From Bacteroidota bacterium (GTDB lineage Bacteria; Bacteroidota; Ignavibacteria; UBA10030; UBA8401), in the NCBI GenBank assembly GCA_013361065.1, contig JABWAK010000008.1:1-48404 (forward strand): DNA of 48,404 bases. Direction: 5' to 3'. Positions within the stretch are counted from its first letter, which is position 1; each line of letters starts with the position of its first letter. The position numbers and the translations under genes were made by a program. The notes below the pieces were generated by a model that saw only the letters and a program-made list of their open reading frames with translations, had not been told where the DNA came from and did no database searches. Positions 15,493-31,339 of this stretch are shown here, piece after piece.

Positions 15493-15597
15493 GCGGTCCT
15501 GTGAAAACGTCAATGTGTTACGACCATGAGTAGGCTAAGTTACGAAAAGTCCATTGAAAAAGGCCAAAAAATCCGCTGAAAATCTTTACATTCCCGC

Positions 15598-16284: not shown

Positions 16285-17241
16285 TCAACGCACGAAGGTG
16301 TACTGAAAAATGGACCTATTGCTCACCTTCGAGATATTGCTCCCGTCCTTCTTCATGGCGTACATGACCCCGGACGCAAGATAGGCGATATACCGGCCGT
16401 CCGGCGTCCAGCGCACATTATTGACCTCCGACCGCCGTAGTCCCGCTCCCGCAGTACCATCGGTCCTCACTGTACGGACCTCCCTCATTTCGGCGGAGAC
16501 CGTACCGACGGAATCAGCGGTGCTCCATCGTTTCACGAAAACAAGCTCCGTACCATCCGGCGAGATATCAACCTCCGGATAAGTGCAGCTGGCGGTCGTC
16601 ATATCGGCGGGAACAAGCAGCGTTGTCTTCTTCGATGAGAGATCGTATCGATACAGTTCCTGGCGGACGGTATCATGCCAGTGTGCATAGATGAGGAATG
16701 CACCATCCTTCGAACAGGCGAACATATTTCCAGCGGCTGCAGTATCGAGCGGTATCACCACTCCGTTCCGGATGATCTTCCACACAACACCATCCAGATC
16801 CAAAGACACCAGCGCATTGCCGTGTGTCCACGTCGCGAAGAGCCTTAGTGGCGACGTGCGGCTGTCGGAGATGACCGATTCGACAGCCGGAGAGGACCGG
16901 ATGTTCACTGTTCCAATGGTAACACCCAGTGAATCGAAGCGCGCCCGGTCGTACACCAATGTGGTGCTGTCCAGAGACAAGGAAAGACTCGATATGGTCG
17001 ATGCATTGAAGCTGATGATGGGCTTCGTGGCCGAATCGGCCAGCGAATGCTGCTCAATGTCGGAGGTGAATCCGTTCGAAGCGGTCCATGTATTCCTGAC
17101 CGCAATGATGGTGTTGGTCAATACGATCGGCGGTACCAGTGTATCGTTGGAGGGTGGTATACCGTCGGAAGGATCGGCTGGGTTCTTGCATCCGACTGCA
17201 ATGAGGAGCGAACCAAGGAGGATCAATGGAAGGTTTTTCAT
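16285..17241 (-). CDS. TolB-like beta-propeller lipoprotein
   Basis: 318 residues. The signal MKNLPLILLGSLLIAVGC ends in a lipobox (I-A-V-G-C18, near-canonical), followed by a linker KNPADPSDG, so the protein should be lipid-anchored. The body repeats four-strand blade patterns with SKDGAFLIYAHW, SPDGTELVFVKRW and TPDGRYIAYLASG, as in TolB/WD40-like propellers. No enzymatic motif is seen; such proteins usually act as binding scaffolds. AGGAG at -12 supports the ATG at 17241. Confidence 0.82.
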   Translation of the reverse strand: MKNLPLILLGSLLIAVGCKNPADPSDGIPPSNDTLVPPIVLTNTIIAVRNTWTASNGFTSDIEQHSLADSATKPIISFNASTISSLSLSLDSTTLVYDRARFDSLGVTIGTVNIRSSPAVESVISDSRTSPLRLFATWTHGNALVSLDLDGVVWKIIRNGVVIPLDTAAAGNMFACSKDGAFLIYAHWHDTVRQELYRYDLSSKKTTLLVPADMTTASCTYPEVDISPDGTELVFVKRWSTADSVGTVSAEMREVRTVRTDGTAGAGLRRSEVNNVRWTPDGRYIAYLASGVMYAMKKDGSNISKVSNRSIFQYTFVR

Positions 17242-17289
17242 TCAATGCTCCTGTGCTGTTCGCTTGTTCCCAGCTGTGTGTCCGTCCCT

Positions 17290-17868
17290 TTACAGTTTCA
17301 ATTGATGGATCTTCTCCTGCTGTTTGTCCATCCATGCGAGCAGAAATCCACCGTCCGGGGTGATGGTCAGCTGCATCCGTCCCGACGGCGCATATTGACT
17401 GGCCGCGATATCCTCCACAACGGTGCCGATGTACTCTGCCTGCACGATGAAGCTGGCGAAGGCCCACGCCGTAAAGCCTTCATCCCCGTTCACAAATGGA
17501 AAGAGCACTTCCGGCTCCCGGAAGCCGACCGACAGAGCGGCATGCTGCTTCACGGCGGTGCTGATGATACCGGTCATGATGTGCACCGGCGCCGCTGCCG
17601 GGTCACGCAGGATGCGGGAAAGAGCCGGTCCGTTGTTGATCGGATCGGTCGCCCCCTCCTTCATCATGGAGGTGAGGAGGTACTCCGCGGCGCTGCGGGC
17701 GGCGGCGGTCCATTCGGCCGGCGTTGAAGTCAGCTCGAGGATCGAAGTAGTTTGAGGAGTATGATGGTCCGTCCGATGGACAGCAATATCGCCGAACACC
17801 GGCTGGAAGGCATTCAATATCTCACGGAGCAAGGGGGATGCACTGTCGCAATTATGGGTAAGGAGCAT
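17290..17868 (-). CDS. Hypothetical protein, about 192 aa
   Basis: The frame is open from a TTG at 17913; the ATG at 17868 is used here, but neither start has a good ribosome site. No signal peptide. Features: SSASPLLREILNAFQPVF-like N-terminus, EWTAAARSAAEYLLTSMM, and HIMTGIISTAVKQHAALS, pointing to an alpha/beta soluble protein. The C-terminal RMQLTITPDGGFLLAWMDKQQEKIHQL is beta-strand rich and the most orderly segment. I do not recognise the family. It sits 48 bases upstream of the TolB-like lipoprotein gene on the same strand and may be cotranscribed with it. Confidence 0.6.
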   Translation of the reverse strand: MLLTHNCDSASPLLREILNAFQPVFGDIAVHRTDHHTPQTTSILELTSTPAEWTAAARSAAEYLLTSMMKEGATDPINNGPALSRILRDPAAAPVHIMTGIISTAVKQHAALSVGFREPEVLFPFVNGDEGFTAWAFASFIVQAEYIGTVVEDIAASQYAPSGRMQLTITPDGGFLLAWMDKQQEKIHQLKL

Positions 17869-18007
17869 AAGAGGAGTTGATTCAATGATCAATGAAAGAT
17901 CGATCGGTTTCAAATCGATGGATCAGACATTGAGTTCATTTAGGTATCATAACTCGTTGATATAATCTTCAGCAGGATGTTTCATTCGTACCATTAGACC
18001 GTGTATG

Positions 18008-18292
18008 TTAATTGATCCTATACGAAAGCAATGACCGTTGATTGAATACCGTGGTCCATGATCGTATCGTAACGATCCCATTCACTAACCCTACGGAAGG
18101 AGAATAAAATGACATTAACTCGTAATCTGGTCCATGTATCTTGTATTGCAGGCAGGAGAAACGGCCGGCTGGAACAACGACAACAGTATCGACTGCACCG
18201 ACAACAAACGCTCCGTACTTGTCATCCCGTATCGCCGGATATTTTGCGATGAGCAAAGGACGTAAGGAATCATCCAGGATCCAGCGCGTTGC
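18008..18292 (-). pseudogene. 5'-truncated remnant of an exported-protein gene
   Basis: Reading minus from just after a TAA at 18295-18293, 94 codons encode WILDDSLRPLLIAKYPAIRD, VVVPAGRFSCLQYKIHG and SFYSPSVGLVNGIV, then stop at 18008. The pattern VPAG-x-F-x-C, followed by Y-x-x-G-V-G-L-V, is what I associate with the C-terminal end of small beta-rich lipoproteins. There is no ATG and no signal or N-terminal domain in any frame upstream, so it looks like a deletion remnant. A functional short protein from the TTG at 18256 (82 aa) cannot be excluded. Confidence 0.5.
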
Positions 18293-18374
18293 TTACATTA
18301 TAAGATCACACTGCCATTCCGTAAAAGATGTTTAATGTTAATTACCTGACAATCCCGAACTAAGAACGGCGGCG

Positions 18375-18394
18375 GTTTGAGCAACAGCTCAAAC
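18375..18394 (-). terminator. Hairpin downstream of the Asp-box lipoprotein gene
   Basis: GTTTGAGC / GCTCAAAC, a perfect 8-bp stem with an AACA loop (plus strand), lies 26 bases past the stop of the minus-strand gene. No T-run, so the call is uncertain. Confidence 0.35.
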
Positions 18395-18420
18395 GACAGG
18401 CTATACGTCGCACTACTAAA

Positions 18421-19371
18421 TTAGTAAAAAGATGTTTTGCTTTTATATATTCCCCTCATGGATGCACCAACATACAAATACCCTTCATCATCTATTGCGG
18501 TTGAATTTGCAGTAACACCCAAGTCTGTTGCCGAAACAATTTCAATCCACGTCAATCCATTGTCAGAAGATTTCAATAAATTCCTATCAACCGCAAATAG
18601 CACATTGTTCTTCCCGACTGTGAATCCTGCCAGGAAACCTTTATAAACATTGTGCCAGCTGATCCCTCTATCTGACGAACGATATGTCGAGCCAAAGATA
18701 TTTGAAACATAAATATTGTTGAGAGAATCGGTATACAGTTCTGCAATCCATGCATCAACGGCGGCAAGTGTATCCCAACTCAACCCATAGTTCGTCGAAC
18801 GTAAAACTCCAAAAATGCCACTTACAAAAAGAGTATCGTGTATCTGACAAATATCCTCGATATACGAAATATGGAACGATGTATCGGGTTCGAACCAATT
18901 TTTACCTCTATTCGTCGAGCACAAAACACCGTTTGACGATGTTCCAAATACATAATTGTTTGAAGTAACGACCATTGAACCGAGAGATTTTGCTAGCACC
19001 AAATTACCATCGGTGAATTTAGCAATGGAGTCTGTAAAACTCCACGAACTACCATAGTTCGATGATGAGTACATACCTGATAATGTAGGAATATAAACAT
19101 AGCCATCGTTACTAAATATTATTCTTCCATGCGGGTAATCATTGATGCAATACTGCCAAGATTTCCCTTTATCGATTGACCTCATCACTCCTTTTTCTAC
19201 GACGGCAATGATATTACCGTTTGGCACAATTGCAATTTTGCTAACGGAAACATTGGGATACAATTGATGCAATATTGATTCTCGTTGTTCATTGCTCTCA
19301 TTGGTAGAATCACACCCATAGAGGATACACTGAATACATACTAGTATTACAATTATTTTTGCTTTATTCAT
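18421..19371 (-). CDS. Asp-box (BNR) beta-propeller lipoprotein
   Basis: 316 residues from the ATG at 19371; alternative ATG at 19401. The signal MNKAKIIVILVCIQCILYGC ends in a lipobox-like I-L-Y-G-C. Six Asp-boxes (S-x-D-x-G-x-S-W type) are spaced along the chain: SIDKGKSW, SSNYGSSW, STNRGKNW, STNYGLSW, SSDRGISW, SSDNGLTW. This is the sialidase/YCF48-like propeller pattern; the catalytic Arg triad of sialidases is not visible, so a binding or scaffold role is likelier. The gene is conspicuously AT-rich against its 60-percent-GC surroundings, suggesting recent acquisition. Confidence 0.82.
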   Translation of the reverse strand: MNKAKIIVILVCIQCILYGCDSTNESNEQRESILHQLYPNVSVSKIAIVPNGNIIAVVEKGVMRSIDKGKSWQYCINDYPHGRIIFSNDGYVYIPTLSGMYSSSNYGSSWSFTDSIAKFTDGNLVLAKSLGSMVVTSNNYVFGTSSNGVLCSTNRGKNWFEPDTSFHISYIEDICQIHDTLFVSGIFGVLRSTNYGLSWDTLAAVDAWIAELYTDSLNNIYVSNIFGSTYRSSDRGISWHNVYKGFLAGFTVGKNNVLFAVDRNLLKSSDNGLTWIEIVSATDLGVTANSTAIDDEGYLYVGASMRGIYKSKTSFY

Positions 19372-19465
19372 AATTCGGTATACAAAAGATTGATTTTTCA
19401 TTGATATATTTTGAACAAGGTTTGTATTCAATGTTCTTGCCGTAAAGCAGATGATTCATCACCTA

Positions 19466-19861
19466 TCAATCGACCACTATTGAATGCTCGATCGGCTTCA
19501 CGCCATCCGGCTGCCGGACCTTGATGTGGAGCATCCCTGTGCGGCGCGCAAGGAACTTCCGTTCCATCCCATCCAGATACGTATCCTTACGGTAATCGAT
19601 CACCGAATACCAAGCACCGACCGCCGTGAGTATCAAGGAGTCATCCTTCTGAACGATGTCGATATGTTTGAACTGCCGCGAATACCATGCGCCGACCTTT
19701 CCGTAGAACTTCACCGTGATGGTATCCTTCAGCATTACCTGCTGCGGGTGGACGATGCTGTCGACGGCGATGATGAAGTCGAACTGCTTGGTCTCCGATT
19801 CAGACCCGCAATGATAGAGCATGGAAAGAGTCGATGCGATGATAATGAGAAGCGTTTTCAT
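19466..19861 (-). CDS. Small exported hypothetical protein, 131 aa
   Basis: The N-terminus MKTLLIIIASTLSMLYHC is a signal peptide; the Cys at 18 with L-Y-H before it is a poor lipobox, so lipidation is uncertain. The mature part alternates strands: FDFIIAVDSIVHPQQVML, DTITVKFYGKVGAWYS, and HIKVRQPDGVKPIEHSIVV, resembling a single Ig-like or beta-sandwich domain. No family recognised. AGGTTCGG before the ATG at 19861 may serve as a ribosome site. It lies within the AT-rich accessory patch but its own composition is closer to the core. Confidence 0.65.
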   Translation of the reverse strand: MKTLLIIIASTLSMLYHCGSESETKQFDFIIAVDSIVHPQQVMLKDTITVKFYGKVGAWYSRQFKHIDIVQKDDSLILTAVGAWYSVIDYRKDTYLDGMERKFLARRTGMLHIKVRQPDGVKPIEHSIVVD

Positions 19862-20189: not shown

Positions 20190-20244
20190 CTATATACGAA
20201 TGGATGATGGGATGTGAAAGAGAGAGCAGGTAAGCGTCACCTCT

Positions 20245-20272
20245 AAAAGAGCGTTCGTATGAGGAGACGCTC
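20245..20272 (-). terminator. Terminator of the repeat-protein operon
   Basis: On the minus strand GAGCGT, a 12-base loop, ACGCTC and TTTT follow in order, starting 12 bases after the stop of the 161-aa gene. The 6-bp stem is short but the T-run is well placed. Confidence 0.5.
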
Positions 20273-20284
20273 ACCGGCCACGTG

Positions 20285-20770
20285 TCAGGCTTTGCGGTGG
20301 AGTTCGGCGAGCTGGGCGATCTTCTGCTGGTATTCCTTGACGACGATGTTCTCGGGATCGAAGAAGGCGATGCGCTGGATCTCCTCCAGGGCGCGGCCGA
20401 ATTCCTTCGCTTCGATGAATTGATCCGTCCGCCGGAAGTACTGGTTCTTGATCCGCTCCAGTGCGATGGTCCGTTCGTCCGGCATGACGCTCCCTTCCGT
20501 GCGGCGTGTATCGCGGCGGGAGCGGTCATTCACGGCGCGGTCGATGAGGAGCGCCAGGAGCTGCTCATCCTCCGCGAACCGCTGGGCGGAGAACTCGGGG
20601 GACTCCGGCGAAGGGAGTGCTGCGACGAATTGTTCGAGCGCCAGCAGGTAGAGATTGTGCAGATCGATGATCTTGGCATCGCGGATGATGGTGAGCGCGT
20701 GCGTGTACCGGTGGGTGCGCACTTCCTGATGCACCTCGCGGAGCAGGGTCGTCAACGAGTCGATGCTCAT
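20285..20770 (-). CDS. Short paralogue of the TPR-like/coiled-coil repeat proteins, 161 aa
   Basis: Start ATG at 20770 overlaps the preceding stop (TGATG), so it is translationally coupled to the 851-aa gene. It has two helical-hairpin modules: an N-terminal one (TLLREVHQEVRTHRYTHALTIIRDAKIIDLHNLYLLALEQFV) equivalent to the N-terminal module of both larger proteins, and a C-terminal one (FIEAKEFGRALEEIQRIAFFDPENIVV) matching the internal repeat. It keeps the L-x-x-x-x-F-x-x-A-L-x-x-I-x-x-A/I-x-x-x-D-P-x-N pattern. Reads as a minimal version of the family, perhaps a cap or adaptor for the long proteins. No signal peptide; cytosolic. Confidence 0.8.
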   Translation of the reverse strand: MSIDSLTTLLREVHQEVRTHRYTHALTIIRDAKIIDLHNLYLLALEQFVAALPSPESPEFSAQRFAEDEQLLALLIDRAVNDRSRRDTRRTEGSVMPDERTIALERIKNQYFRRTDQFIEAKEFGRALEEIQRIAFFDPENIVVKEYQQKIAQLAELHRKA

Positions 20771-23325
20771 CAGCCGGCCGCTTGTCCGCTGGAATAGATG
20801 AGTTTGAGGCCCTGTGCCGCCTTCAGGTCATGTTCCGCCTGCTCGGCCCGGATCTCGGCGTCGAGGGTGAGCAGTTCGGTGTTCTGCAGATCCACCGTGA
20901 GACCGTGAGCGATCTCGTCCAGCGCCTTGGCGAACTCGCGCTGAGCACGGAACTCGGTGGCGACGCGGATATGGATGCGGATGAGACGGTCCTGCTCTTC
21001 CTTGGAGATGCGGGGCTGGGCGCCGGCGCCGGGAGCGGCCTGCTGCGATGAAAGCTTCGCATCGTGGAGGGCGGTGATGCGCTGTTCCAGTTTGAGCAAT
21101 TCGTCGTTGGCCGGATCGAGCACCAGTCCTGAGAGGATCTCCACGAGCGCCTTGTCCGGCAGATTGGCCATCAGATAGCTCTGCGCCTGCGCCAGATACC
21201 GCGCCACTTTCTGTTCCCGTGCATCGGCACGGTGCTGGTCCCGGGACTGTGCCATGACCGCTTCGATATCCTCCATGAGGGAGAGCGATTCCACGCGGGT
21301 GGGATCGAAATCGAGCGCCTTGCGCACGGCGATCATCGCTTCGTCGAACTTCTCCACCGTGAGGTACTCCCGTGCGACCACGAGCAGTTTCTGGATCTCC
21401 AGATTCCGGGACTCGACGCGCTGCTGCATCGTCCACCGTTCGGACGCCTCGCGGATCCGTTCGCGCATGGCGGTCAGTTCCGTGTGCGTACCGTCCAGAT
21501 GCAGTCCGCTCTCCACTTCCGACAACGCCTGTTCGAAGAGGTCCCGTTCCAGGAATTCGGCCGCATGCTGCAGATGCCGTTCGATCACCTTCGATGATTC
21601 ATCGCGGGTGCGGCGCTCATGCTCCTCCGCCAGGAAGGCATCGAATTCCGCCTGCAGCTGCTGTTCGAACGACTGGATGGTGAGGTCCAGCGGGTTCAGG
21701 ATGAATGCTTTCGCCACTTCGTTGAATGCCTTGCTGAACTGCTTCATGCCGCGGAGCCGTTCCGCTTCGGCCAGATGCATCGCGATGCGCGCGTCGGTCT
21801 CGTTCCTGGTCCGTTCCTCTTCCTGCCGGGACTGCTGCAGCCGTTCCTGATGGGCCGCCTGATAGCTCTCCCGCTCCGCCAGGATGCGCTGCTCCATCCC
21901 TTTCACATCCTCATCGAACGGATCGATGATGAACGCGAGGGCGACCTCGCCGAGCGCTACTTCGAACTGGCGTTCGTTCAGGAATCTGGAGGCACGCTCC
22001 AGATACTGCAGGATCTTCTCCTTGTCCGCCTTGCGCTGTGCCAGCACCTCCTCGCTCTCCCCTTCCAGCACGCGTTCGCGGTCCGTATGGACCATGCGGC
22101 GGATCTCCTCCTCCTGCTGCCGGCGGATCTGGTCCTGCAGTTCGCGCTTGCTCTCCTCTTCGCGGCGGAAATGTTCCTCCTGCATCGCGAGGATGCGGCG
22201 TTCGCACTCCTGCAGTTCGTCGTTGACCGGATCGAGCACGGTGGCGCGGGTGATGGTGCGGAGCGCGTCGGTGAACTTCTGCTGCCGGGCGAGCTGCTCG
22301 GCGTTGGCGATGTGCTTGCGGATGGTCGCCACGATGGTCTCGCGCTTCCGCTGCCGCTCTTCCAGCTGCCGCTGGTACTGTTCCAGCTGCTGCTGCTGCT
22401 GTTTCTCCTGCATCTCCAGGATGCGCTGTTCCAGACGGAGCACTTCCTCGTTCAGCGGATCGATGACGATGACGAACGCGAGCTCGCTCAGCGCTTCGTC
22501 CAGCTTGTTGGCCTGGTACAGTTCCGTGACATGCTGCAGGTACTGCCGGACCTTCTCCTCCTGCGCGCGTTTCCGTTCCTGTTCCTCACGGCGGACCTTC
22601 TCTTCCTTCTCCTTCTGGTAGAGCTGGGACTGGGACTTGAGGAGCTCCTGCCGTTTCAGGCGGTCCTCCTCCATCCTCCGCTGCCGTTCCGTCTCCTCAT
22701 CACGCCGTGCATCCTCCTGCGCTTTGCGGATGGTGTCCTCCAGCGCATGGATACGGTCATTCACCGGATCGAGCAGATACGCGCGGGCGATCTCATCGAG
22801 CGCGCGGCCGTATTCCTTCCGCTGGAAGTATCCGTTGGCTCGGGTGAGGAACGCTGCGATCTTCCCTTCGATGGCGGTGCGGCGCAGTTCATCGTTGCGG
22901 TTCTTCGCTTCCTCTTCCTTCCGGTGCAGCTCGACCGCCTGTTCCTGCTGTGCGGCAACGGCGGCGCTGTGCTGTGCTTCGATGATGGCGAGATTGGAGA
23001 GGTGCTGGAGGGTCGGTGCGATCTTCTGTTCAGCGTTCGGTTCGGCCGGTGCGGCCGGTGCCGCGGAGGCGGCAGCCGGTGCAGCGGGGGCGGAGCCCTT
23101 CTTCGCTTCTTCGGCCTGCTTGGCGGTCAGAAGCGTCCGGACCCGTTCCTCATACGCAAGGGCGTACAGGTGGCGGGAATCGTAGGAACGCGCTTTGGCG
23201 ATCAGCTGCAACGCGGCGGCAAGGTCTCCCTCCTTCACAAGCTTATCAGCCTGCTTCAGAAGAAGAGCGACCTCCTTCATGCGTTCCGATGCCGGAAGCG
23301 ATGTATTATCCTGCGACGCTGCCAT
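20770..23325 (-). CDS. Giant TPR-like hairpin/coiled-coil repeat protein, 851 aa
   Basis: About ten modules, each a helical hairpin followed by a charged coiled coil. The hairpin consensus is (I/V)xxYLxxAxxLxxxxxFxxALxEIxxAxxLDPxNxxVxxLExRI, for example EYGRALDEIARAYLLDPVND, KLDEALSELAFVIVIDPLNE and LPDKALVEILSGLVLDPAND. Linkers are Glu/Arg/Gln-rich (QQQQQLEQYQRQLEERQRKR). The N-terminal module (about 15-70) is divergent and separated by an Ala/Pro linker at about 78-96. No signal or membrane segment. The hairpin resembles a TPR with the fixed D-P turn. No known named family fits; scaffold function is inferred from architecture. A candidate promoter (23369-23397) precedes it. Confidence 0.85.
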   Translation of the reverse strand: MAASQDNTSLPASERMKEVALLLKQADKLVKEGDLAAALQLIAKARSYDSRHLYALAYEERVRTLLTAKQAEEAKKGSAPAAPAAASAAPAAPAEPNAEQKIAPTLQHLSNLAIIEAQHSAAVAAQQEQAVELHRKEEEAKNRNDELRRTAIEGKIAAFLTRANGYFQRKEYGRALDEIARAYLLDPVNDRIHALEDTIRKAQEDARRDEETERQRRMEEDRLKRQELLKSQSQLYQKEKEEKVRREEQERKRAQEEKVRQYLQHVTELYQANKLDEALSELAFVIVIDPLNEEVLRLEQRILEMQEKQQQQQLEQYQRQLEERQRKRETIVATIRKHIANAEQLARQQKFTDALRTITRATVLDPVNDELQECERRILAMQEEHFRREEESKRELQDQIRRQQEEEIRRMVHTDRERVLEGESEEVLAQRKADKEKILQYLERASRFLNERQFEVALGEVALAFIIDPFDEDVKGMEQRILAERESYQAAHQERLQQSRQEEERTRNETDARIAMHLAEAERLRGMKQFSKAFNEVAKAFILNPLDLTIQSFEQQLQAEFDAFLAEEHERRTRDESSKVIERHLQHAAEFLERDLFEQALSEVESGLHLDGTHTELTAMRERIREASERWTMQQRVESRNLEIQKLLVVAREYLTVEKFDEAMIAVRKALDFDPTRVESLSLMEDIEAVMAQSRDQHRADAREQKVARYLAQAQSYLMANLPDKALVEILSGLVLDPANDELLKLEQRITALHDAKLSSQQAAPGAGAQPRISKEEQDRLIRIHIRVATEFRAQREFAKALDEIAHGLTVDLQNTELLTLDAEIRAEQAEHDLKAAQGLKLIYSSGQAAG

Positions 23326-23368
23326 AATTCGCTGAAATTCGCCTTATTTTTGAAGAAATATCCTGTGT

Positions 23369-23397
23369 ATGGTATCAAAAATCGCCGTGGGAGTCAA
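23369..23397 (-). promoter_or_regulatory. Candidate internal promoter for the 851/161-aa genes
   Basis: On the minus strand TTGACT (23397-23392), a 17-base spacer and TACCAT (23374-23369) lie in the 102-base gap before the 851-aa gene. The -35 matches at 5 of 6 and the -10 at 4 of 6 positions. It could raise expression of the last two genes above the rest. Confidence 0.4.
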
Positions 23398-23427
23398 CCC
23401 GGTCCCCGATTAGAATATTATAACCGG

Positions 23428-25473
23428 TCACGCCGGCAGGGTGGCGCCGCGGTTCTCGTACAGTTTGGCGCGGAGTGCCAGCGCGCCGGGGTGCTGCGGA
23501 TTGAGCCGCAGGGCGAGGTCCACTTCAAAGATCGCCTCGAACGCACGGTTCTCGGAGATGAACTCCATCGCCTTGCTGAGGTGGAACTGGATGACCAGTT
23601 CCTTGTCCTCGTTGGCCTTCTGTTCCTCCAGTTTCCGCTGGGCACGCTCGATCTCGTCGCGCATCTGCAGCGTCTCGAACCGCTGCATGTCGAAGCTCAT
23701 GGCATAATCGACCCAGCCGAGCGCCTCGGCGTAGGAATCGCGGGAGAGCGCCTCGCGCGCCATGGCGAGACTCTTCCGGATCCCCTGATCCTTCTTCGAC
23801 GTCTCCTCCTGCTTCTGCTGTTCCTCCTCGTGCTTCAGGAACTCCTGCTGGATCTCCCCTTCCAGTGCGAAGAGGTCCTCATTCATCGGGTCGAGACGGT
23901 ACGCCTGTGCGATCTCATCCAGCGCTTCCTTGTAGTGATGGGATGATCGATGCTGACGCGCAGCAAGGATGTGCTGCTGGATGACGGCAATGGTCGCTTC
24001 ATCGTCCGCCGGGGAATGCTCCGGCGCGGGGAACGCACCGGAGCGCTGCTGCTTCATCTTCTTCTGTGCATCCAGGATCTCGCGCTGCAGTTTGGCGATC
24101 TCGCCGTCGAACGGGTTGATCTTGAACGCCTTGCCGATATTGGCGAGCGCTTCATCGAAGCGTCCCTGACTGACGAATCCGCGCGCTTTGGAGAGGAACA
24201 GCAGCACCTCCTCCTCGTCCCGGAGCAATTTCGCTTCGGTCTCCACCCGTTCGCGGATCTGTTCGCGCTTCTGCTGTTCGATGGCCAGGCGGTGGAGTTC
24301 CGCTTCCTGCCGGCGGCGGCGGTCCTCATCGGCGCGCCGTTTCTCCTCCTCTTCGATCCGGAGCGCTTCCTCCTCCTCCGCCATGATGCGGCGTTCGAGG
24401 GCGATCACCTCCTCGTTGGAGGGATCGATGAAATAGGCCTGGGTGATCACCCGGAGCGCTTCGCCGTACCGGCGCTGCCCCAGGAACTCCGCCGCCTTCT
24501 CCAGATTCTTCTCCACCGCACGGCGGATGGTCTCCTCCTTCTTCCGTTCCTCCTCCAGCTGCTGTTTCCGCTTCGCCACATGCTCTTCCGAGGAACGGGT
24601 CTGTGCTTCGCGGATCTTCCAGTTCAGGTCGAGCACCTCCTCGTTGAGCGGATCGAGGACCATAACGAAGGCGAGCTGTCCGAGCGCCTCCTCCACCTTC
24701 TGTTCGGCGAAGAGCGTTCGGGCGACCTGGAGGTACTCGCGGATCTTCTGCGCCCGTGCCTGTTTGTGCGCCTCCTCCCGCTTGACCAGTTCCTCCTCGC
24801 GTTCCGTCTCCCGCTGCACCTTCCACTGAGCGAAGAGCTGCTGCCGACGGAGCTCCTCCTCGGCATGACGACGCGTCCGTTCCTCCTCCTCCAGCTTGTC
24901 CTGCCGGTCCTGCGCGATCTTGATCTCTTCCTCGATCTGCAGGATGCGCTCATCCGTGGGATCGAGCATGAAGGCGCGGGCCACCTCGTTGAGGGAGTTC
25001 CGGTAGTCGCCGTGCGCTTCCAGTTCGCGCGCCCGTTTCAGGTAGTCGGCGATCTTGCGGGCGATGCTCGCTGTGCGGAGCTGTTCCTCGTGCCGCAGTT
25101 CCTCCTCCTGCTGGCGCTGCAGGGCGAAGACCTCTTTCTGCTTGTAGGCCGTGACAGCGCTCCGTTTCACCTCCTTGATGGCAAGGTCGAGGATCTTCTC
25201 CAGTGTCGGCATCAGCTGGGCGATGACCGCATCCCGGGCAGCGGTGTCGCCGCCGGGACCGTGAAGGTCGGTCTGCTTGAGGAGCACGGAACGGACATAC
25301 TCCTCGTATGCCCGGGCGTACATGATGGTGGGATTCTTCTCCCGTGCGCGCATGATCTCATCCAGGGCGTGCGGGATGTCACCCTGCCGGATGTACTTGT
25401 CGGCGTTCTTCAGGTAGGCGATCACCTCAGTGAGGTGCTCGGCGCCGATGATTTTTTGCGCGATATTCTGCAT
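23428..25473 (-). CDS. TPR-like hairpin/coiled-coil repeat protein, 681 aa (paralogue of the 851-aa protein)
   Basis: The ATG at 25473 (MQNIAQKIIGAEHLTEV) is preferred over a GTG at 25506. About eight modules follow the same plan: ADKYIRQGDIPHALDEIMRA (N-terminal module), then DYRNSLNEVARAFMLDPTDE, KVEEALGQLAFVMVLDPLNE, RYGEALRVITQAYFIDPSNE, RFDEALANIGKAFKINPFDG and HYKEALDEIAQAYRLDPMNE, separated by long Glu/Arg/Lys coiled coils. Modules 2-5 line up in order with modules 2-5 of the 851-aa protein (both have AL-x-x-LAFV-x-V-x-DPLNEEVL at module 3), so the two genes arose by duplication. No signal peptide or membrane segment. Function unknown; likely a long cytosolic rod or scaffold. Confidence 0.85.
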   Translation of the reverse strand: MQNIAQKIIGAEHLTEVIAYLKNADKYIRQGDIPHALDEIMRAREKNPTIMYARAYEEYVRSVLLKQTDLHGPGGDTAARDAVIAQLMPTLEKILDLAIKEVKRSAVTAYKQKEVFALQRQQEEELRHEEQLRTASIARKIADYLKRARELEAHGDYRNSLNEVARAFMLDPTDERILQIEEEIKIAQDRQDKLEEEERTRRHAEEELRRQQLFAQWKVQRETEREEELVKREEAHKQARAQKIREYLQVARTLFAEQKVEEALGQLAFVMVLDPLNEEVLDLNWKIREAQTRSSEEHVAKRKQQLEEERKKEETIRRAVEKNLEKAAEFLGQRRYGEALRVITQAYFIDPSNEEVIALERRIMAEEEEALRIEEEEKRRADEDRRRRQEAELHRLAIEQQKREQIRERVETEAKLLRDEEEVLLFLSKARGFVSQGRFDEALANIGKAFKINPFDGEIAKLQREILDAQKKMKQQRSGAFPAPEHSPADDEATIAVIQQHILAARQHRSSHHYKEALDEIAQAYRLDPMNEDLFALEGEIQQEFLKHEEEQQKQEETSKKDQGIRKSLAMAREALSRDSYAEALGWVDYAMSFDMQRFETLQMRDEIERAQRKLEEQKANEDKELVIQFHLSKAMEFISENRAFEAIFEVDLALRLNPQHPGALALRAKLYENRGATLPA

Positions 25474-25510
25474 CACAGAAGGGGGACCGGGTCCGGCGGT
25501 GCGCACCGCT

Positions 25511-25540
25511 GCGGACCCCGCGTGGGGCGGCGGGGTCCGC
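25511..25540. other. Perfect GC-rich hairpin inside the signalling operon
   Basis: GCGGACCCCG (25511-25520) and CGGGGTCCGC (25531-25540) form a 10-bp stem with a 10-base loop, in the 105-base gap between the two-receiver gene and the 681-aa repeat gene. No T-run follows, so it is more likely an mRNA-processing or stability element, or a partial attenuator. Confidence 0.55.
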
Positions 25541-25578
25541 AGGAGACACCAATACCGGACGACGGTCCCGGTGCGGTC

Positions 25579-26574
25579 CTATTTCTTGTTCTTGGCGAGC
25601 AATGCCTGGGCGGCGCGGAGACGGAGGCGGAGCGTGCTCTCCTCGTTCCGGACCATCCGTTCGGGGGAGATCTCTTCTGCCATCTTGAGCACGTTCTTGT
25701 GCGGCGTCGCCTTGAATGCCTTGCTGCGCTCGATCGCTTTCTCCAGGGTGTGGGAGATCTGGTCCTCCGGCATCGGTTTCACGAGATAGCGGAACACGTT
25801 CAGCTCGTTGATGGAGCGGATGGCGAGCTGGGCATCCTTCACCTCGGTGAGGATGACGGAGACGGTATTGGGATACTCGCGGCGGACGGTATCCAGAAAG
25901 CTGACGCCGTCCACATCGCCGAAGTTGATGTTGCTGACGATCACCGAGACCGGTTTCTTTGCCATCTCCTGGAATGCCGCATCGATGGAGTTCACCGCCA
26001 CGGCATTGAAAGCGCTGCCGTACTTGTCCACCAGGCGTCCGGTCTCCTCCTCGCTGTAGTCGACGAACAGGACGGTGGGACTCGCCTCCTCCACCTCGAT
26101 GTGGACGCGATGACCGGAGACGGGATGTTCCTCGGTGACCGCATCGTCCTGCTTCTGCATCTCGGTCTCCTGCAGCTTGGTGACCTTATCGTAGATCTCC
26201 ACGCCGAGTTTCACCACGTACAGCATGAACTCACCCTGCCACGGCTTGTTGATGAACCGGAAGACCTCGCCGGCGTTCACCGAACCGATGATGGCATCCA
26301 GGTCCGAGTACCCGGTGAGGAGCATGCGGACGCTGTTGGGACTGATCTCCTTCACCTGCCGCAGCAGTTCATGACCGAGCATGCCGGGCATGCGCTGGTC
26401 GCTCACCACCACTTTGATGGGGACCGATTTGATGATCTCCAGCGCATCGAAACCGTTCTCGGCCAGGTACACCTTGTACTTGTTCTTGAACAGCATGTTG
26501 AGGGATGACAGGATCATCGGTTCGTCGTCGACAAACAGGATGTTCGATTTCTCTTCTATGACGTTTTTACTCAT
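25579..26574 (-). CDS. Two-receiver protein with a degenerate second receiver
   Basis: 331 residues from the ATG at 26574, preceded by GAAGGAGAAA. REC1 (about 11-125) is intact: Asp16/Asp17, phospho-Asp59 in VVVSDQRMPG, Thr87, Lys110 in FINKPW; the DQRMPGM form is typical of receivers in HD-GYP and RpfG-like regulators. REC2 (about 166-285) aligns strand for strand (VLFVDY, VIVSNINFGDVDG, VILTEV, RYLVKPM) but has Asn215 in the phospho-acceptor position and a single acid in the pocket. It is therefore probably a pseudo-receiver. The C-terminal about 45 residues are basic and helical. No output domain: it may relay signals to the repeat proteins encoded downstream. Confidence 0.9.
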   Translation of the reverse strand: MSKNVIEEKSNILFVDDEPMILSSLNMLFKNKYKVYLAENGFDALEIIKSVPIKVVVSDQRMPGMLGHELLRQVKEISPNSVRMLLTGYSDLDAIIGSVNAGEVFRFINKPWQGEFMLYVVKLGVEIYDKVTKLQETEMQKQDDAVTEEHPVSGHRVHIEVEEASPTVLFVDYSEEETGRLVDKYGSAFNAVAVNSIDAAFQEMAKKPVSVIVSNINFGDVDGVSFLDTVRREYPNTVSVILTEVKDAQLAIRSINELNVFRYLVKPMPEDQISHTLEKAIERSKAFKATPHKNVLKMAEEISPERMVRNEESTLRLRLRAAQALLAKNKK

Positions 26575-26623
26575 GGTCGTTTCTCCTTCGTGCACTCAGT
26601 TCAGATTCGGTTCGTTCCGTCGG

Positions 26624-28723
26624 TCACGCCGCCGGTGCAGCTTCCTTCTTGGCGATACGGGGCTGCACCACCGGGATGCGGACAAAGAAATCGGTACCGC
26701 GTCCCACTTCGCTCTCCACCTTGATGGAGCCGCCGTGCTTCTCGATGATCTTGTACGAGATGGAGAGCCCGAGTCCGGTCCCCTCGCCGACCTTCTTCGT
26801 GGTGAAGAACGGTTCGAAGATCTTGGAGAGGTTCTCGCGCGGGATGCCCTTCCCGGTATCGGAGATCTTCACCACCGCCATGTCCGGATTGCCCGGTTCC
26901 TTGTAGGTACGGATGGTGATGGTCCCCTGTCCTTCGATCGCCTGCGCGGCATTGGTGAGCAGGTTCAGGATGACCTGGTTGTACTGGGCCGGGAAGCATT
27001 CCGCCATGAGGTTCGGCTGGTAATCCTTCTTGACCACGGCGCGGTTCTTGATGACGTTGTTGGCGATGACGAGCGTGGCATCGAGCGCGCTGTTGAGGTC
27101 GATCTTCGCCAGGTCCGCTTCGTCCAAACGGGAGAATTCGCGCAGGTTCTTGATGAGTTCCTGGATGCGCTCCGTTCCGACGAGTGCCTGCGAGAGCATG
27201 GTCTTGCTGTCCTCCAGGACGGTGTTCTTCTCGAGTTCGGTGGAGAGGTTGGCGAGGTCGGTAACGGTCTGCTCCAGACCCTCCTCCACGCCGTTCACCA
27301 GCATATCGAGCAATTTGCGGTATTGTTCCACCGCGTCATTGATGGTCTGCTGGTTGCCGATCATCATCTCGATGTTGTTCTTCACATAGCCGAGCGGGGT
27401 ATTGATCTCATGGGCGAGACCGGCCACCATCTGACCGAGGGACGCCATCTTCTCTCCTTGCACCAGAGCGGTCTGTGTTTCACGCAGCTGGCGGTTGGTG
27501 GCTTCGATCTGGATCCTGTTGTCCTCGAGCTCTTTATTACGGGAGAGCAGGCTGAGCGCAACCTGGTTGAAGGAGCGTCCCACACGGCCCAGCTCGTCGC
27601 GCGTTTCGACCTCCACGACCTCGGTGATCTTGCCCTCGTTCAGCTGGGCAGCCACGTTCTCCAGCGTGCTCACCGTGTCGATCACGGAGCTGTAGAACCC
27701 GCCCAACAGGTAGGACACGAAGATCAGCACGAGGATGGTGCCGGCGATGTAGATGAGCACCTGCTGCTCGAGGTTCTTGATGCGGACCTCGATGAGGTTG
27801 CGGAGGATCGGCGCCTGCACGTCGAACACATCGAGTCCCGCTTTGATGGGACGCTCGAGGATGCTCAGATCGAGACCGCGGGCGATGCGGAGGCTGTCAT
27901 CCAGGATCTCGGACTGCAGCAGTTCGATGTACTGGTCGGTGGAGGATTTCAGATCCACATAGGAGGGTTCCACGACCGGGCTGATCGGCTGGTTATAGGT
28001 GTTGATGCGGTTCACCGCGTCAGCGATATCGGACATGAGCGGCTGGACGATACCGGACTGGATGGTGAACGCGGTGCGCTGTTCCGGCAAGAGTTTCGGC
28101 GTGCGCAGTGCGGCGCGGAGCAGGTTCTTGGACTGGCTGAGCGCCTCGGTCATCTGCAGCACCTTGAAGTTGGTGATGTTCATCAGATAGTAGGTCTCGA
28201 TGTCCGTATCCAGCGTGAGGTTCGAGTTATCCGCCACGTCGATGACGAGTGCGAGCACGTCGGAGACGAGCTTGTTGTGGAGCTCCTCGCTCTTCTCGAT
28301 CTTGTGCGTGAAGGCGCGGCTCTTGAGGTTCTTCCAGTCGATCTTGATATTCTTCCACTGTTCCCGCACGGCGAGCGCATCACCGTACTGCGTATCGGCC
28401 GAGTCGACGCTCAGCACGGCGGTCTCGATCTGCTGCTGCGCATCGGTCATGAGCTGCTCGGCGGTGCTGTCCCCCAGGAAGAACTGCACCGAATAATCGC
28501 GGTGTGTCTGGACCGCTTCGTAGAACTGCCGCAGGGCCACGTTGTACGTGATACCCGTGAGCTCCTTCTGCGAGTATTCCACGTTCTGCGTGATCTGCGT
28601 GGTAACGATATACAGCAGACTGCCGCTCGGGATCAAGAGCAGGACCAGAACGATGGCGAACTTCTGCAGATAGTTGAGCCGGTTCATCAGCAGTGCACCA
28701 AGACTGAAGATCGCTTGTCTCAT
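26624..28723 (-). CDS. Transmembrane sensor histidine kinase with HAMP
   Basis: 699 residues. TM1 at about 22-41 (FAIVLVLLLIPSGSLLYIVT), a helical periplasmic sensor of about 280 residues (four-helix-bundle-like, FYEAVQTHRDYSVQFFLGDS), TM2 at about 322-345, HAMP, a coiled coil (NRIQIEATNRQLRETQ), HisKA with His438 in GLAHEINTPLGYVKNN, and HATPase with NLLTNAAQAIEGQG, DTGKGIP and GTGLGLSIS. The GLAHEINTPL form places it in the HisKA group lacking a PAS. No receiver or output domain, so it must use the lone receivers next door. Start ATG at 28723; an internal ATG at residue 13 is also possible. Confidence 0.93.
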   Translation of the reverse strand: MRQAIFSLGALLMNRLNYLQKFAIVLVLLLIPSGSLLYIVTTQITQNVEYSQKELTGITYNVALRQFYEAVQTHRDYSVQFFLGDSTAEQLMTDAQQQIETAVLSVDSADTQYGDALAVREQWKNIKIDWKNLKSRAFTHKIEKSEELHNKLVSDVLALVIDVADNSNLTLDTDIETYYLMNITNFKVLQMTEALSQSKNLLRAALRTPKLLPEQRTAFTIQSGIVQPLMSDIADAVNRINTYNQPISPVVEPSYVDLKSSTDQYIELLQSEILDDSLRIARGLDLSILERPIKAGLDVFDVQAPILRNLIEVRIKNLEQQVLIYIAGTILVLIFVSYLLGGFYSSVIDTVSTLENVAAQLNEGKITEVVEVETRDELGRVGRSFNQVALSLLSRNKELEDNRIQIEATNRQLRETQTALVQGEKMASLGQMVAGLAHEINTPLGYVKNNIEMMIGNQQTINDAVEQYRKLLDMLVNGVEEGLEQTVTDLANLSTELEKNTVLEDSKTMLSQALVGTERIQELIKNLREFSRLDEADLAKIDLNSALDATLVIANNVIKNRAVVKKDYQPNLMAECFPAQYNQVILNLLTNAAQAIEGQGTITIRTYKEPGNPDMAVVKISDTGKGIPRENLSKIFEPFFTTKKVGEGTGLGLSISYKIIEKHGGSIKVESEVGRGTDFFVRIPVVQPRIAKKEAAPAA

Positions 28724-28783
28724 AGTGTTACTCCGTGTGATGTGGGGTTATGATATTGATGTTGAATAGTGTACGTCATATTC

Positions 28784-29176
28784 TCAGGCCGCTTCGGCGA
28801 TGCGGTGGATGGTCTCCACCACCTTCTCGAACTCGATGGACTTGTCATAGAAATAATCCGCCCCCTCCTCGAAACATTTCCGGCGGTACTCCTCCTGCGC
28901 ATAGTTGGTCAGCATGATCACCTTGGCCGGGACATGCTTGCCGCGGATGTTCTTGAGCACATGGATGCCGCTGCCGCCGGTGAGGAAGATATCGAGGATG
29001 ATCACATCCGGCTGCTGGGCGACGATCGCTTCGGTGGCCGCCAGCGGATTGTCGGCGAATCCGACGATGGTGATCGACGGAACTTCGTTGAGGAGAGCGG
29101 TCAGACGCTCACGGACGATGGCGGAATCGTCCACGATGAAGACATTGATCGGCTTTGTTTTCACGGTAGTTTGCAT
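28784..29176 (-). CDS. Single-domain response regulator (CheY-like receiver)
   Basis: 130 residues, receiver only. All key residues are present: Asp16/Asp17 acidic pocket (FIVDDS), phospho-Asp62 in ILDIFLTGGSG, Thr90 in IMLTNYA, Lys112 in YFYDKS. No output domain. In the usual scheme it would receive phosphate from the adjacent kinase and either act by binding another protein or pass phosphate on. It heads the unit that continues with the kinase (60 bases downstream), the two-receiver protein and the repeat proteins. Confidence 0.9.
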   Translation of the reverse strand: MQTTVKTKPINVFIVDDSAIVRERLTALLNEVPSITIVGFADNPLAATEAIVAQQPDVIILDIFLTGGSGIHVLKNIRGKHVPAKVIMLTNYAQEEYRRKCFEEGADYFYDKSIEFEKVVETIHRIAEAA

Positions 29177-29262
29177 GGTAGTGTGGCCTAGGATACAAAC
29201 TTATCGTAGGAGGGAGTATCGGCGAAACAAGGTATTTCGTGTAGGTGTTTGTCCTACAGCGC

Positions 29263-29892
29263 TTACTCGACCAGTTTGTGGTGGAGGGCGTAGCGGGTCA
29301 ATTCGGCATTGGAGCCGAGATGGAGTTTATCGAGGATACGGGAGCGGTAGGTGGAGACGGTCTTCACGCTCAGGGACAGCGCGGCGGCCGCTTCGGAGAC
29401 GGTCTTACCGGAGGCGATGAGTTTCAGCACCTGGAACTCGCGGTCCGAGAGCTGTTCGTGTCCCTCGCCCTGATGGGGACGCTGGACCAGGTCGATGAGT
29501 TGATCGGAAAGCGCAGCACTGATGTACTTCCCTCCGCCGAGGATCTTGGTGACAGCATTGACGAGTTCCTCCGGCGCACTATCCTTGGTCAGATATCCCA
29601 TCGCACCGGCTTTTATCACGCGGAGCGCATACTGGTCCTCGGGATACATCGAGAGGACCAGGATAGGGAGTTTCGGGGAGAGAACCTTGATATCCTTCAG
29701 CAGGTCGAGTCCGCTCCGCCCCGGCATGCTCAGGTCGAGGATGAGCAGGTCGAACGGCGAGCGGATGAGCTGGAGCGTCTGCGCGGCATCGGCCGATTCA
29801 CCGAAGACCACATTCTTCATCCCTTCGGAGAGGATCTGCTTCAGTCCCTTCCGCACGATGGTGTGATCGTCGGCGATGAGGATGCGGGTCAT
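29263..29892 (-). CDS. NarL/FixJ-family response regulator
   Basis: 209 residues: receiver (Asp8/Asp9, phospho-Asp53 in LILDLSMPGRSG, Lys in YLTKDSAP) followed by a LuxR-type helix-turn-helix at about 145-205 (LSDREFQVLKLIASGKTVSEAAAALSLSVKTVSTYRSRI). It is a DNA-binding transcription factor. It begins 1 base after the stop of its cognate HisKA_3 kinase gene, so the pair forms a two-gene operon and almost certainly one phospho-relay pair. Target genes unknown. Confidence 0.95.
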   Translation of the reverse strand: MTRILIADDHTIVRKGLKQILSEGMKNVVFGESADAAQTLQLIRSPFDLLILDLSMPGRSGLDLLKDIKVLSPKLPILVLSMYPEDQYALRVIKAGAMGYLTKDSAPEELVNAVTKILGGGKYISAALSDQLIDLVQRPHQGEGHEQLSDREFQVLKLIASGKTVSEAAAALSLSVKTVSTYRSRILDKLHLGSNAELTRYALHHKLVE

Positions 29893-29893
29893 G

Positions 29894-31339
29894 CTACGCG
29901 GAAGGGAACGTTTCGATCAGCGGGATGCGCACGCGGACGGAGGTCCCTTTGCCGTGGGCGCCGGTAACGAGCACCTCGCCGTTGAAACTGGCGGCACGCT
30001 CCTTCATACCGAGGATGCCGACCGAGCGGGGATTGGCGAGTTCATGCGGCGCGATGCCGCGTCCGTCATCCTCGATGGTGAGCAACACACTGGCGCCCTC
30101 CTTGCGGAGCGTGATGGCGACGTTCTTCGCCTGTGCATGACGGATGACGTTGGTGAGCGATTCCTGGAAGATGCGGAAGAATGCAGTGGACCGTTTCTCA
30201 TCCATCTGGATCGCCTCATCCAGATGGAACGTGAAGTCGATGCCGGTCCGTTCGCTGAAGTCCTTCCCCTGCCATTCGATAGCAGCGGCCAGACCGATGT
30301 CGTCGAGGATGCCGGGACGGAGGTCCGTGGCGAGTTTGCGCACTTTGTGGATGGTGGCATCCGCCAGGTCCATCATCGACCGGATCCGTTTCTGGATCGC
30401 TTCATCCGTGGAAGCAAGTTTGTTGTTCATCCAGGCGAGGTCCATCTTCAGTCCGGTCAACGCCTGACCGAGATCGTCATGGATCTCGCGTGCAATGTGG
30501 GTCCGTTCCTCCTCGCGGATGTTCTGCAGGCGGACGGTGAGGGCGCGCAGCTGTTTGCGCGAACTGTCGATCTCGATCTCCGCATGCATCCGTTCAGTGA
30601 TGTCCGTGATGGTGCCGACGAATCCGGCGAGCGAGCCGTCCGGATTCACTTCCGGGAGCGCCTGACCCATCACCCAGAGTTCGGTCTTGTCCGTCTCGCG
30701 GTAGATGCGGTACTCGGACTGGAACGGCGTCCGTTCACGCACGCAGCGGTGCCATTCGGTGCGGATGCGTTTGCGGTCATGGGAATGGACCGCATTGAGG
30801 AAGCCGTCCCCGAACGCCTGATCATAGGTCAGCCCGGTGATGTCGCTCCACCGCTCGTTCACATACAGATAGAAGCCGTCCGCCGATGCCAGGAAGATAC
30901 CGACCGTGGAGACCTTGGCGAGCGTGTTGAATCGTTCCTTGCTGAGCCGCAGTTCCTCCTGCACGCGCCGCTTGTCGATGGCGCTCTCGATGGCGGACCC
31001 GAGCCGAGCGGAGTGCTGCTTGAACACATAATCCGTTGCACCGGAGCGCATGCATTCCACCACCGTCTCCTCGTTCAGCACCGCCGAGTAGATGATGAGC
31101 GGCGTGGTCGCGATCATGTTCTTCAGGATGCTGATGGTGTCGGACGGTTTCAGTTCGGCGATGGTATAATCGACGATGATGATCTCCGGAGAGAACTCTT
31201 CGAGCACTTCCGGCACCTGATCGAAGGCGGAGATGACGCGAAGTTCGTGGGCGATGCCGGACCGGCGCATCTCTGCCGTGAACAGGTCGATGCTCTCCTG
31301 TTTGTTCTCAATGAGCAGGATACGGGTCTGGTGCGCCAT
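29894..31339 (-). CDS. REC-PAS-HisKA_3 sensor kinase (NarX/DegS-type core)
   Basis: 481 residues, no membrane segments. An N-terminal receiver (about 6-120) keeps Asp57 in IIIVDYT, but its acidic pocket reads ENK instead of DD, so Mg-dependent phosphorylation may be weak. A PAS domain (about 140-255; FYLYVNERWSDITGLTYDQAFG) precedes a HisKA_3 dimerisation domain with His287 in REIHDDLGQALTGL and a HATPase (FFRIFQESLTNVIRHA, IEDDGRGI, LGMKERA). The receiver-first layout suggests the kinase is itself controlled by another kinase. A sigma-70-like promoter lies at 31390-31418. Start ATG at 31339. Confidence 0.93.
   Translation of the reverse strand: MAHQTRILLIENKQESIDLFTAEMRRSGIAHELRVISAFDQVPEVLEEFSPEIIIVDYTIAELKPSDTISILKNMIATTPLIIYSAVLNEETVVECMRSGATDYVFKQHSARLGSAIESAIDKRRVQEELRLSKERFNTLAKVSTVGIFLASADGFYLYVNERWSDITGLTYDQAFGDGFLNAVHSHDRKRIRTEWHRCVRERTPFQSEYRIYRETDKTELWVMGQALPEVNPDGSLAGFVGTITDITERMHAEIEIDSSRKQLRALTVRLQNIREEERTHIAREIHDDLGQALTGLKMDLAWMNNKLASTDEAIQKRIRSMMDLADATIHKVRKLATDLRPGILDDIGLAAAIEWQGKDFSERTGIDFTFHLDEAIQMDEKRSTAFFRIFQESLTNVIRHAQAKNVAITLRKEGASVLLTIEDDGRGIAPHELANPRSVGILGMKERAASFNGEVLVTGAHGKGTSVRVRIPLIETFPSA

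Follow-up and report, generated by a model that had tools for sequence, protein, structure and literature searches.

Proteins with a receiver fold are known to act through contacts with tetratricopeptide repeat (TPR) proteins or with hubs. In Myxococcus xanthus the pseudo-receiver of FrzS binds SgmX, a protein with 14 TPRs (PMC11580455, PMC12632262). In Bacillus the TPR domain of Rap contacts the receiver Spo0F (PMC3035606), and in Pseudomonas aeruginosa FimL, an interaction partner of FimV, keeps the lone receiver PilG at the pole (PMC10519157). We analyzed a stretch of 48,404 nucleotides (the window), namely contig JABWAK010000008.1 of assembly GCA_013361065.1 from a Bacteroidota bacterium (Ignavibacteria; UBA10030; UBA8401), in which genes for histidine kinases and receivers stand next to genes for long TPR proteins; a preliminary description had covered positions 20285-29176. 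Our analysis suggests, tentatively and with a likelihood that we place a little below even, that this locus encodes a two-layer signalling system in which two older modules have been joined and whose output would pass through protein contact with TPR rods. Among the titles and abstracts listed for Ignavibacteria together with TPR, TonB and kinases, none describes a locus of this kind.

All window features discussed here lie on the minus strand. The six genes of the preliminary description, REC1, HKB, RECx2, TPRA, TPRB and TPRC, follow one another in that order and were all found where it had placed them, with gaps of 60, 49, 105 and 102 bases from REC1 to TPRB and a one-base overlap between TPRB and TPRC (TGATG). 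The gene set does not begin at 29176 as had been proposed, since two genes absent from that set, HKA and RR, precede REC1 on the same strand, 86 bases upstream. Because these two genes lie so close, and RR combines a receiver with a GerE domain while a palindrome stands before REC1, the locus does encode a DNA-binding output, which had been denied.

The two-component genes and the TPR genes of this locus occur together in related genomes. Among 98 genomes of the order, RECx2 was found in 11 (E <= 1e-60) and HKB in exactly those 11 (E <= 1e-70), and a TPR-rod gene lies directly downstream of RECx2 in every one of them. These genomes belong to four genera of the window's family, except for one from another family (G055), which has only HKB, RECx2 and the TPR gene, with identities of 70% for RECx2 and 55% for HKB. 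The genome G018, of the same genus as G010, has no RECx2, no HKB and no full-length TPRB, and its TPR matches are weak. The locus of G001 is a fragment, as its contig begins inside TPRB. Fisher tests of the co-occurrence gave p = 2e-8 in the order and p = 3e-5 in the family, both values being inflated by shared descent. Fusions of TPRs with a receiver also recur: the same assembly encodes a TPR-TPR-(TerB-like by eye)-REC protein (contig C65, 4535-5725) next to a Por_Secre_tail gene, and relatives of this fusion are found at eight further loci in the order, some of them adjoining hybrid kinases (L068, L072). In line with the preliminary description, the shared distribution, the constant downstream rod gene and the fusions together argue that the coupling is not accidental.

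The proteins of the signalling half carry the residues expected of two-component proteins. HKB (26624-28723) is by Pfam a membrane histidine kinase of 699 aa with HAMP, HisKA and HATPase_c domains, and its H438 and G boxes are invariant down to 55% identity; it scores 243 bits against the T2SS_HK kinase model (NF038348), below the curated cut-off of 450. REC1 (28784-29176) is a lone receiver of 130 aa (Pfam Response_reg, 1.9e-22) whose DD, D, T and K phosphorylation residues are intact and invariant in the alignment. RECx2 (25579-26595, with an ATG at 26574) consists of two receivers and has no output domain. Its domain 1 is canonical, and all 28 sequences compared keep D23, D24, D66, T94 and K117. 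In domain 2 N222 replaces the phospho-Asp, a position held by N or E in 19 of the 28 sequences and by N in all members of the order that were read. The C-terminal 20 residues of RECx2, EES-LRLRLRAAQALL, show strong conservation both within the order and among its nearer members elsewhere. The AlphaFold model of RECx2 is too poor for interpretation (mean pLDDT 55). HKB also has a conserved additional helical stretch (residues about 450-545), which separates its ATPase domain from the histidine region of HisKA.

By analogy, RECx2 is comparable to FrzS as a receiver-fold protein without a DNA-binding output that may act through TPR contact, and it likewise contains a pseudo-receiver. FrzS carries a single pseudo-receiver together with a coiled coil of its own, whereas RECx2 combines a phosphorylatable receiver with a pseudo-receiver and is encoded beside a membrane kinase. 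RECx2 does not fall under the FrzS-type pseudo-response regulators, as it has a canonical domain 1 and is not followed by a long coiled coil, although domain 2 lacks the Asp. PilG offers a further analogy, being a lone receiver that is anchored on a scaffold or hub, but its chemotaxis-type kinase ChpA and its adaptor FimL have no counterpart at this locus.

The three remaining genes encode repeat proteins, in agreement with the preliminary description. TPRA (23428-25473, ATG at 25473 and stop at 23428; 681 aa) and TPRB (20770-23325; 851 aa) are TPR/coiled-coil proteins that match Pfam TPR_2 with E-values of 8.8e-10 and 1.3e-6 and reach 38.4 and 28.5 bits, respectively, against a cut-off of 27. 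TPRC (20285-20770; 161 aa) has no Pfam TPR match, and its assignment comes from a unit profile, built from TPRB, and from homology. This profile finds 7 TPR-like units in TPRA, 10 in TPRB and 2 in TPRC. TPRA and TPRB share one unit register with a spacing that alternates between 103 and 76 residues, and they are 35% identical, so that we regard them as paralogues. None of the three proteins has a predicted membrane helix by hydropathy (the maximum for TPRC is 1.35). The model of TPRB (mean pLDDT 81, pTM 0.30) is all-helical, with helix-turn-helix TPR units and linking helices that reach about 80 residues, and fits a long rod. A fold search of the PDB with TPRB returned general TPR proteins only, at TM-scores of 0.06-0.08 on the query, and gave no function; a PDB sequence search had the same outcome. 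The likeness of TPRA and TPRB to SgmX is one of analogy. In the same way, Rap and Spo0F provide an analogous contact of a TPR domain with a receiver, but Rap is a compact 3-helix bundle with a TPR domain, while TPRA and TPRB are probably rods with spaced TPR units.

Each half of the locus is also found without the other. Homologues of TPRB occur at 39-48% identity in one sister family (f6) and further ones in another (f5), at loci that have neither HKB nor RECx2. The partner gene of the rod in these families encodes an N-terminal part that matches TPRC, then one transmembrane (TM) helix, a Pro-rich stretch and a TonB_C domain. We observed such gene pairs at L043-L049, L053, L054, L058 and L060-L063, and in several copies in G055; this two-gene module was not described in the literature that we searched. 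The window's TPRC is homologous to the cytoplasmic TPR part of these proteins and has no TM helix or TonB_C domain, so that, judged from its sequence, it is only the cytoplasmic part of a TonB-type protein. A related rod of about 550 aa lies amid unrelated genes in the genus g2. The rod module is therefore spread more widely than its coupling to HKB and RECx2. In the preliminary description, repeat homologues without two-component genes were named as evidence that would speak against the coupling. Such homologues do exist in the sister families, mostly beside a TPR-TM-TonB_C gene, which goes half of the way.

HKB and RECx2 seem to form an older pair. When 395 genomes of the phylum were sampled, 16 from outside the order proved to carry relatives of RECx2 at 35-62% identity, with as many as five in one genome, the maximum that was scored. 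An HKB-type kinase lies directly upstream in 18 of the 20 neighbourhoods compared outside the order, which argues that the two are an old cognate pair. No TPRA/TPRB-type unit was seen nearby in any of these 20 neighbourhoods; as far as sampled, the rods are neighbours of HKB-RECx2 in this order only. At three of the loci a gene follows on the same strand: a TPR-cyclase by Pfam (L087), an unscanned gene of the same size and place (L088) and a TPR-GGDEF gene (L096). Other neighbours of the pairs outside the order (L086-L105) include a BBP2 porin, TerC, Peripla_BP_5 and a TonB_C protein.

The genes upstream of REC1 seem to govern how much of the signalling part, REC1-HKB-RECx2, is made. HKA (29894-31339) is a REC-PAS-HisKA_3 histidine kinase with no predicted TM helix (Pfam HisKA_3 at 9.6e-17, PAS_3, Response_reg and HATPase_c); its position is preserved in relatives, and a promoter-like TTGATT-17-TATACT matches upstream of it (31418-31390). 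RR (29263-29892), one base away from HKA, is a response regulator of the NarL/GacA type (Pfam Response_reg and GerE), with UvrY/SirA/GacA (NF007018) as its top NCBIfam match at 157 bits, under the curated cut-off of 280. A 19-bp palindrome, TGTAGGacaaacaCCTACA, lies before REC1 (29240-29258) and is a probable RR site. It is the sole match in the window at up to 3 mismatches, with none in shuffled sequences, and this genome has no second copy. A search of 23 genomes for the pattern TGTARGACAAANNCCTACA gave a single hit in each of G000, G006, G007, G010 and G013 and none in the others (the reversed control gave 0). The alignment shows the palindrome in G015 as well. RR orthologues (at least 66% identity) are encoded in G000, G004, G006, G007, G010, G013 and G015 and were not found in G002, G003 and G005; the palindrome is confined to genomes that retain RR. 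In G003 a broken remnant of an RR gene lies between HKA and REC1 (L037, 3487-3693).

Among described response regulators, RR is nearest to the GacS/GacA (BarA/UvrY) family, and the half-site TGTARG agrees with the GacA site, TGTAAG-N6-CTTACA (PMC4950607). Here, however, the spacer measures 7 and not 6, a single promoter carries the site, and the RR score lies below the family cut-off.

The locus is likely to be transcribed as three units, namely HKA-RR, REC1-HKB-RECx2 (with TPRA reached by read-through or from its own start) and TPRB-TPRC, because a hairpin or terminator follows RECx2 and a conserved promoter precedes TPRB. The GC hairpin between RECx2 and TPRA (25510-25541, arms GCGGACCCCGC and GCGGGGTCCGC) is kept in 8 of 11 genomes. 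It has a T-rich tail resembling an intrinsic terminator in G002, G003, G004, G005, G007 and G010; the window and G006 lack this tail, and no U-tract follows it in the window. Before TPRB lies a promoter-like TTGACT-17-TACCAT (23369-23397, by sequence match), and the form TTGAC(A/T)-17-TA-hexamer is kept in 7 of the 10 genomes compared. A single operon from REC1 to TPRC, as first described, is weakened by these internal elements. The terminator reported at 20245 was not confirmed as such: a strong hairpin does follow TPRC (about 20229-20274, -28 kcal/mol), but it lacks a U-tract.

Of the readings that we weighed, a two-layer system with a scaffold as output remains the best. In the first layer HKA would phosphorylate RR, which would bind the palindrome and set the transcription of REC1-HKB-RECx2. 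In the second layer HKB would phosphorylate domain 1 of RECx2 at D66, and probably also REC1. As RECx2 has no output domain, its phosphorylation state might alter its binding to TPRA and TPRB, with the pseudo-receiver domain 2 as a possible fixed docking surface, and the two rods may hold TPRC and other partners. The signal of HKB and its receiver is probably read by protein scaffolds, since the kinase and the output-less receiver adjoin rod genes in every related genome that has them. The TPRB-TPRC half appears related to the sister-family module that ends in a TM-TonB_C protein, and since the membrane part is absent here, the assembly would be cytosolic. In a more specific version, which we regard as unlikely, the assembly of the cytosolic TPR/coiled-coil rods would itself be switched by HKB and the receiver/pseudo-receiver protein, giving a scaffold or filament as the output; one lineage would have brought together the old pair of HKB and RECx2 and a rod module which in relatives a TonB-type protein ties to the envelope.

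The phylum has repeated cases of double receivers that lack an output domain, and sequence alone does not reveal their partners. The locus supplies a concrete candidate partner for them in the TPR rods. If the contact is real, receiver-to-TPR signalling as in FrzS-SgmX and Rap-Spo0F would reach into a further phylum and include a system that can be phosphorylated. A natural comparison is at hand, since RR and the rods are each present in some genomes and absent from others, and the rods occur both with the TonB-type membrane part and without it.

Several observations weigh against the two-layer proposal. The terminator-like hairpin and the promoter part the signalling half from the rod half. 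Relatives of TPRB and TPRC occur without HKB-RECx2. Conversely, 17 of the 20 loci of HKB-RECx2 type outside the order showed no adjoining TPR gene, and the pair can therefore function in the absence of rods. Conservation of the RECx2 tail extends to loci that lack a following TPR gene, so the tail is not a rod-specific dock, a role that we had considered for it. For the first layer, G004 retains RR and yet its second palindrome half-site is degenerate. RR and the palindrome adjoin, so that a single deletion could take out both; we therefore downgraded their joint loss from proof of binding to evidence that is good and not independent.

One rival reading is that the two halves are neighbours only, transcribed apart and doing different jobs, with the synteny due to limited divergence or to shared expression needs. 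The hairpin found after RECx2 in most relatives, the promoter before TPRB and the occurrence of each half alone elsewhere all agree with it. On the other hand, the TPR gene directly follows RECx2 in 11 of 11 genomes from five genera and two families, and G018 lacks both halves jointly. We consider mere neighbourhood rather unlikely.

It is also conceivable that the TPR proteins regulate the receivers as Rap does, binding phosphorylated RECx2 or REC1 and blocking or dephosphorylating it, in which case RR or some other partner would carry the true output, transcription. Rap touches Spo0F directly through its TPR domain (PMC3035606), Spo0F is among the PDB sequence matches of RECx2, and a DNA-binding RR is encoded in the same locus. 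Yet no Rap model matched, the modelled rod shape of TPRB and the long helical linkers of the 681- and 851-aa proteins would be more in keeping with a scaffold than with a compact phosphatase, and TPRB relatives occur without these receivers and with a TonB-type partner. We hold such a role to be improbable. That RECx2 and REC1 act like CheY on a flagellar or other motor, with the rods placing the complex at the pole, is very doubtful, for although the genome encodes FliM and PilG is kept at the pole via FimL, a partner of the hub FimV (PMC10519157), the conserved set holds no motility gene and the kinases are not CheA-like.

A defence system was considered as well and set aside, as PADLOC gave only one weak match, to REC1. 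Downstream of the locus, a PDZ-GAF-SpoIIE phosphatase-type protein is encoded at 12700-15513 (minus strand), and a stretch of about 3.6 kb (16285-19861, minus strand), in which BNR-type genes and others lie, separates it from TPRC. In relatives a single opposite-strand gene stands in that place. Past this gene, the first one on the strand of TPRC is a SpoIIE homologue or a gene of the same size in G002-G005, G013 and G015; Pfam was read for L033 and the window only.

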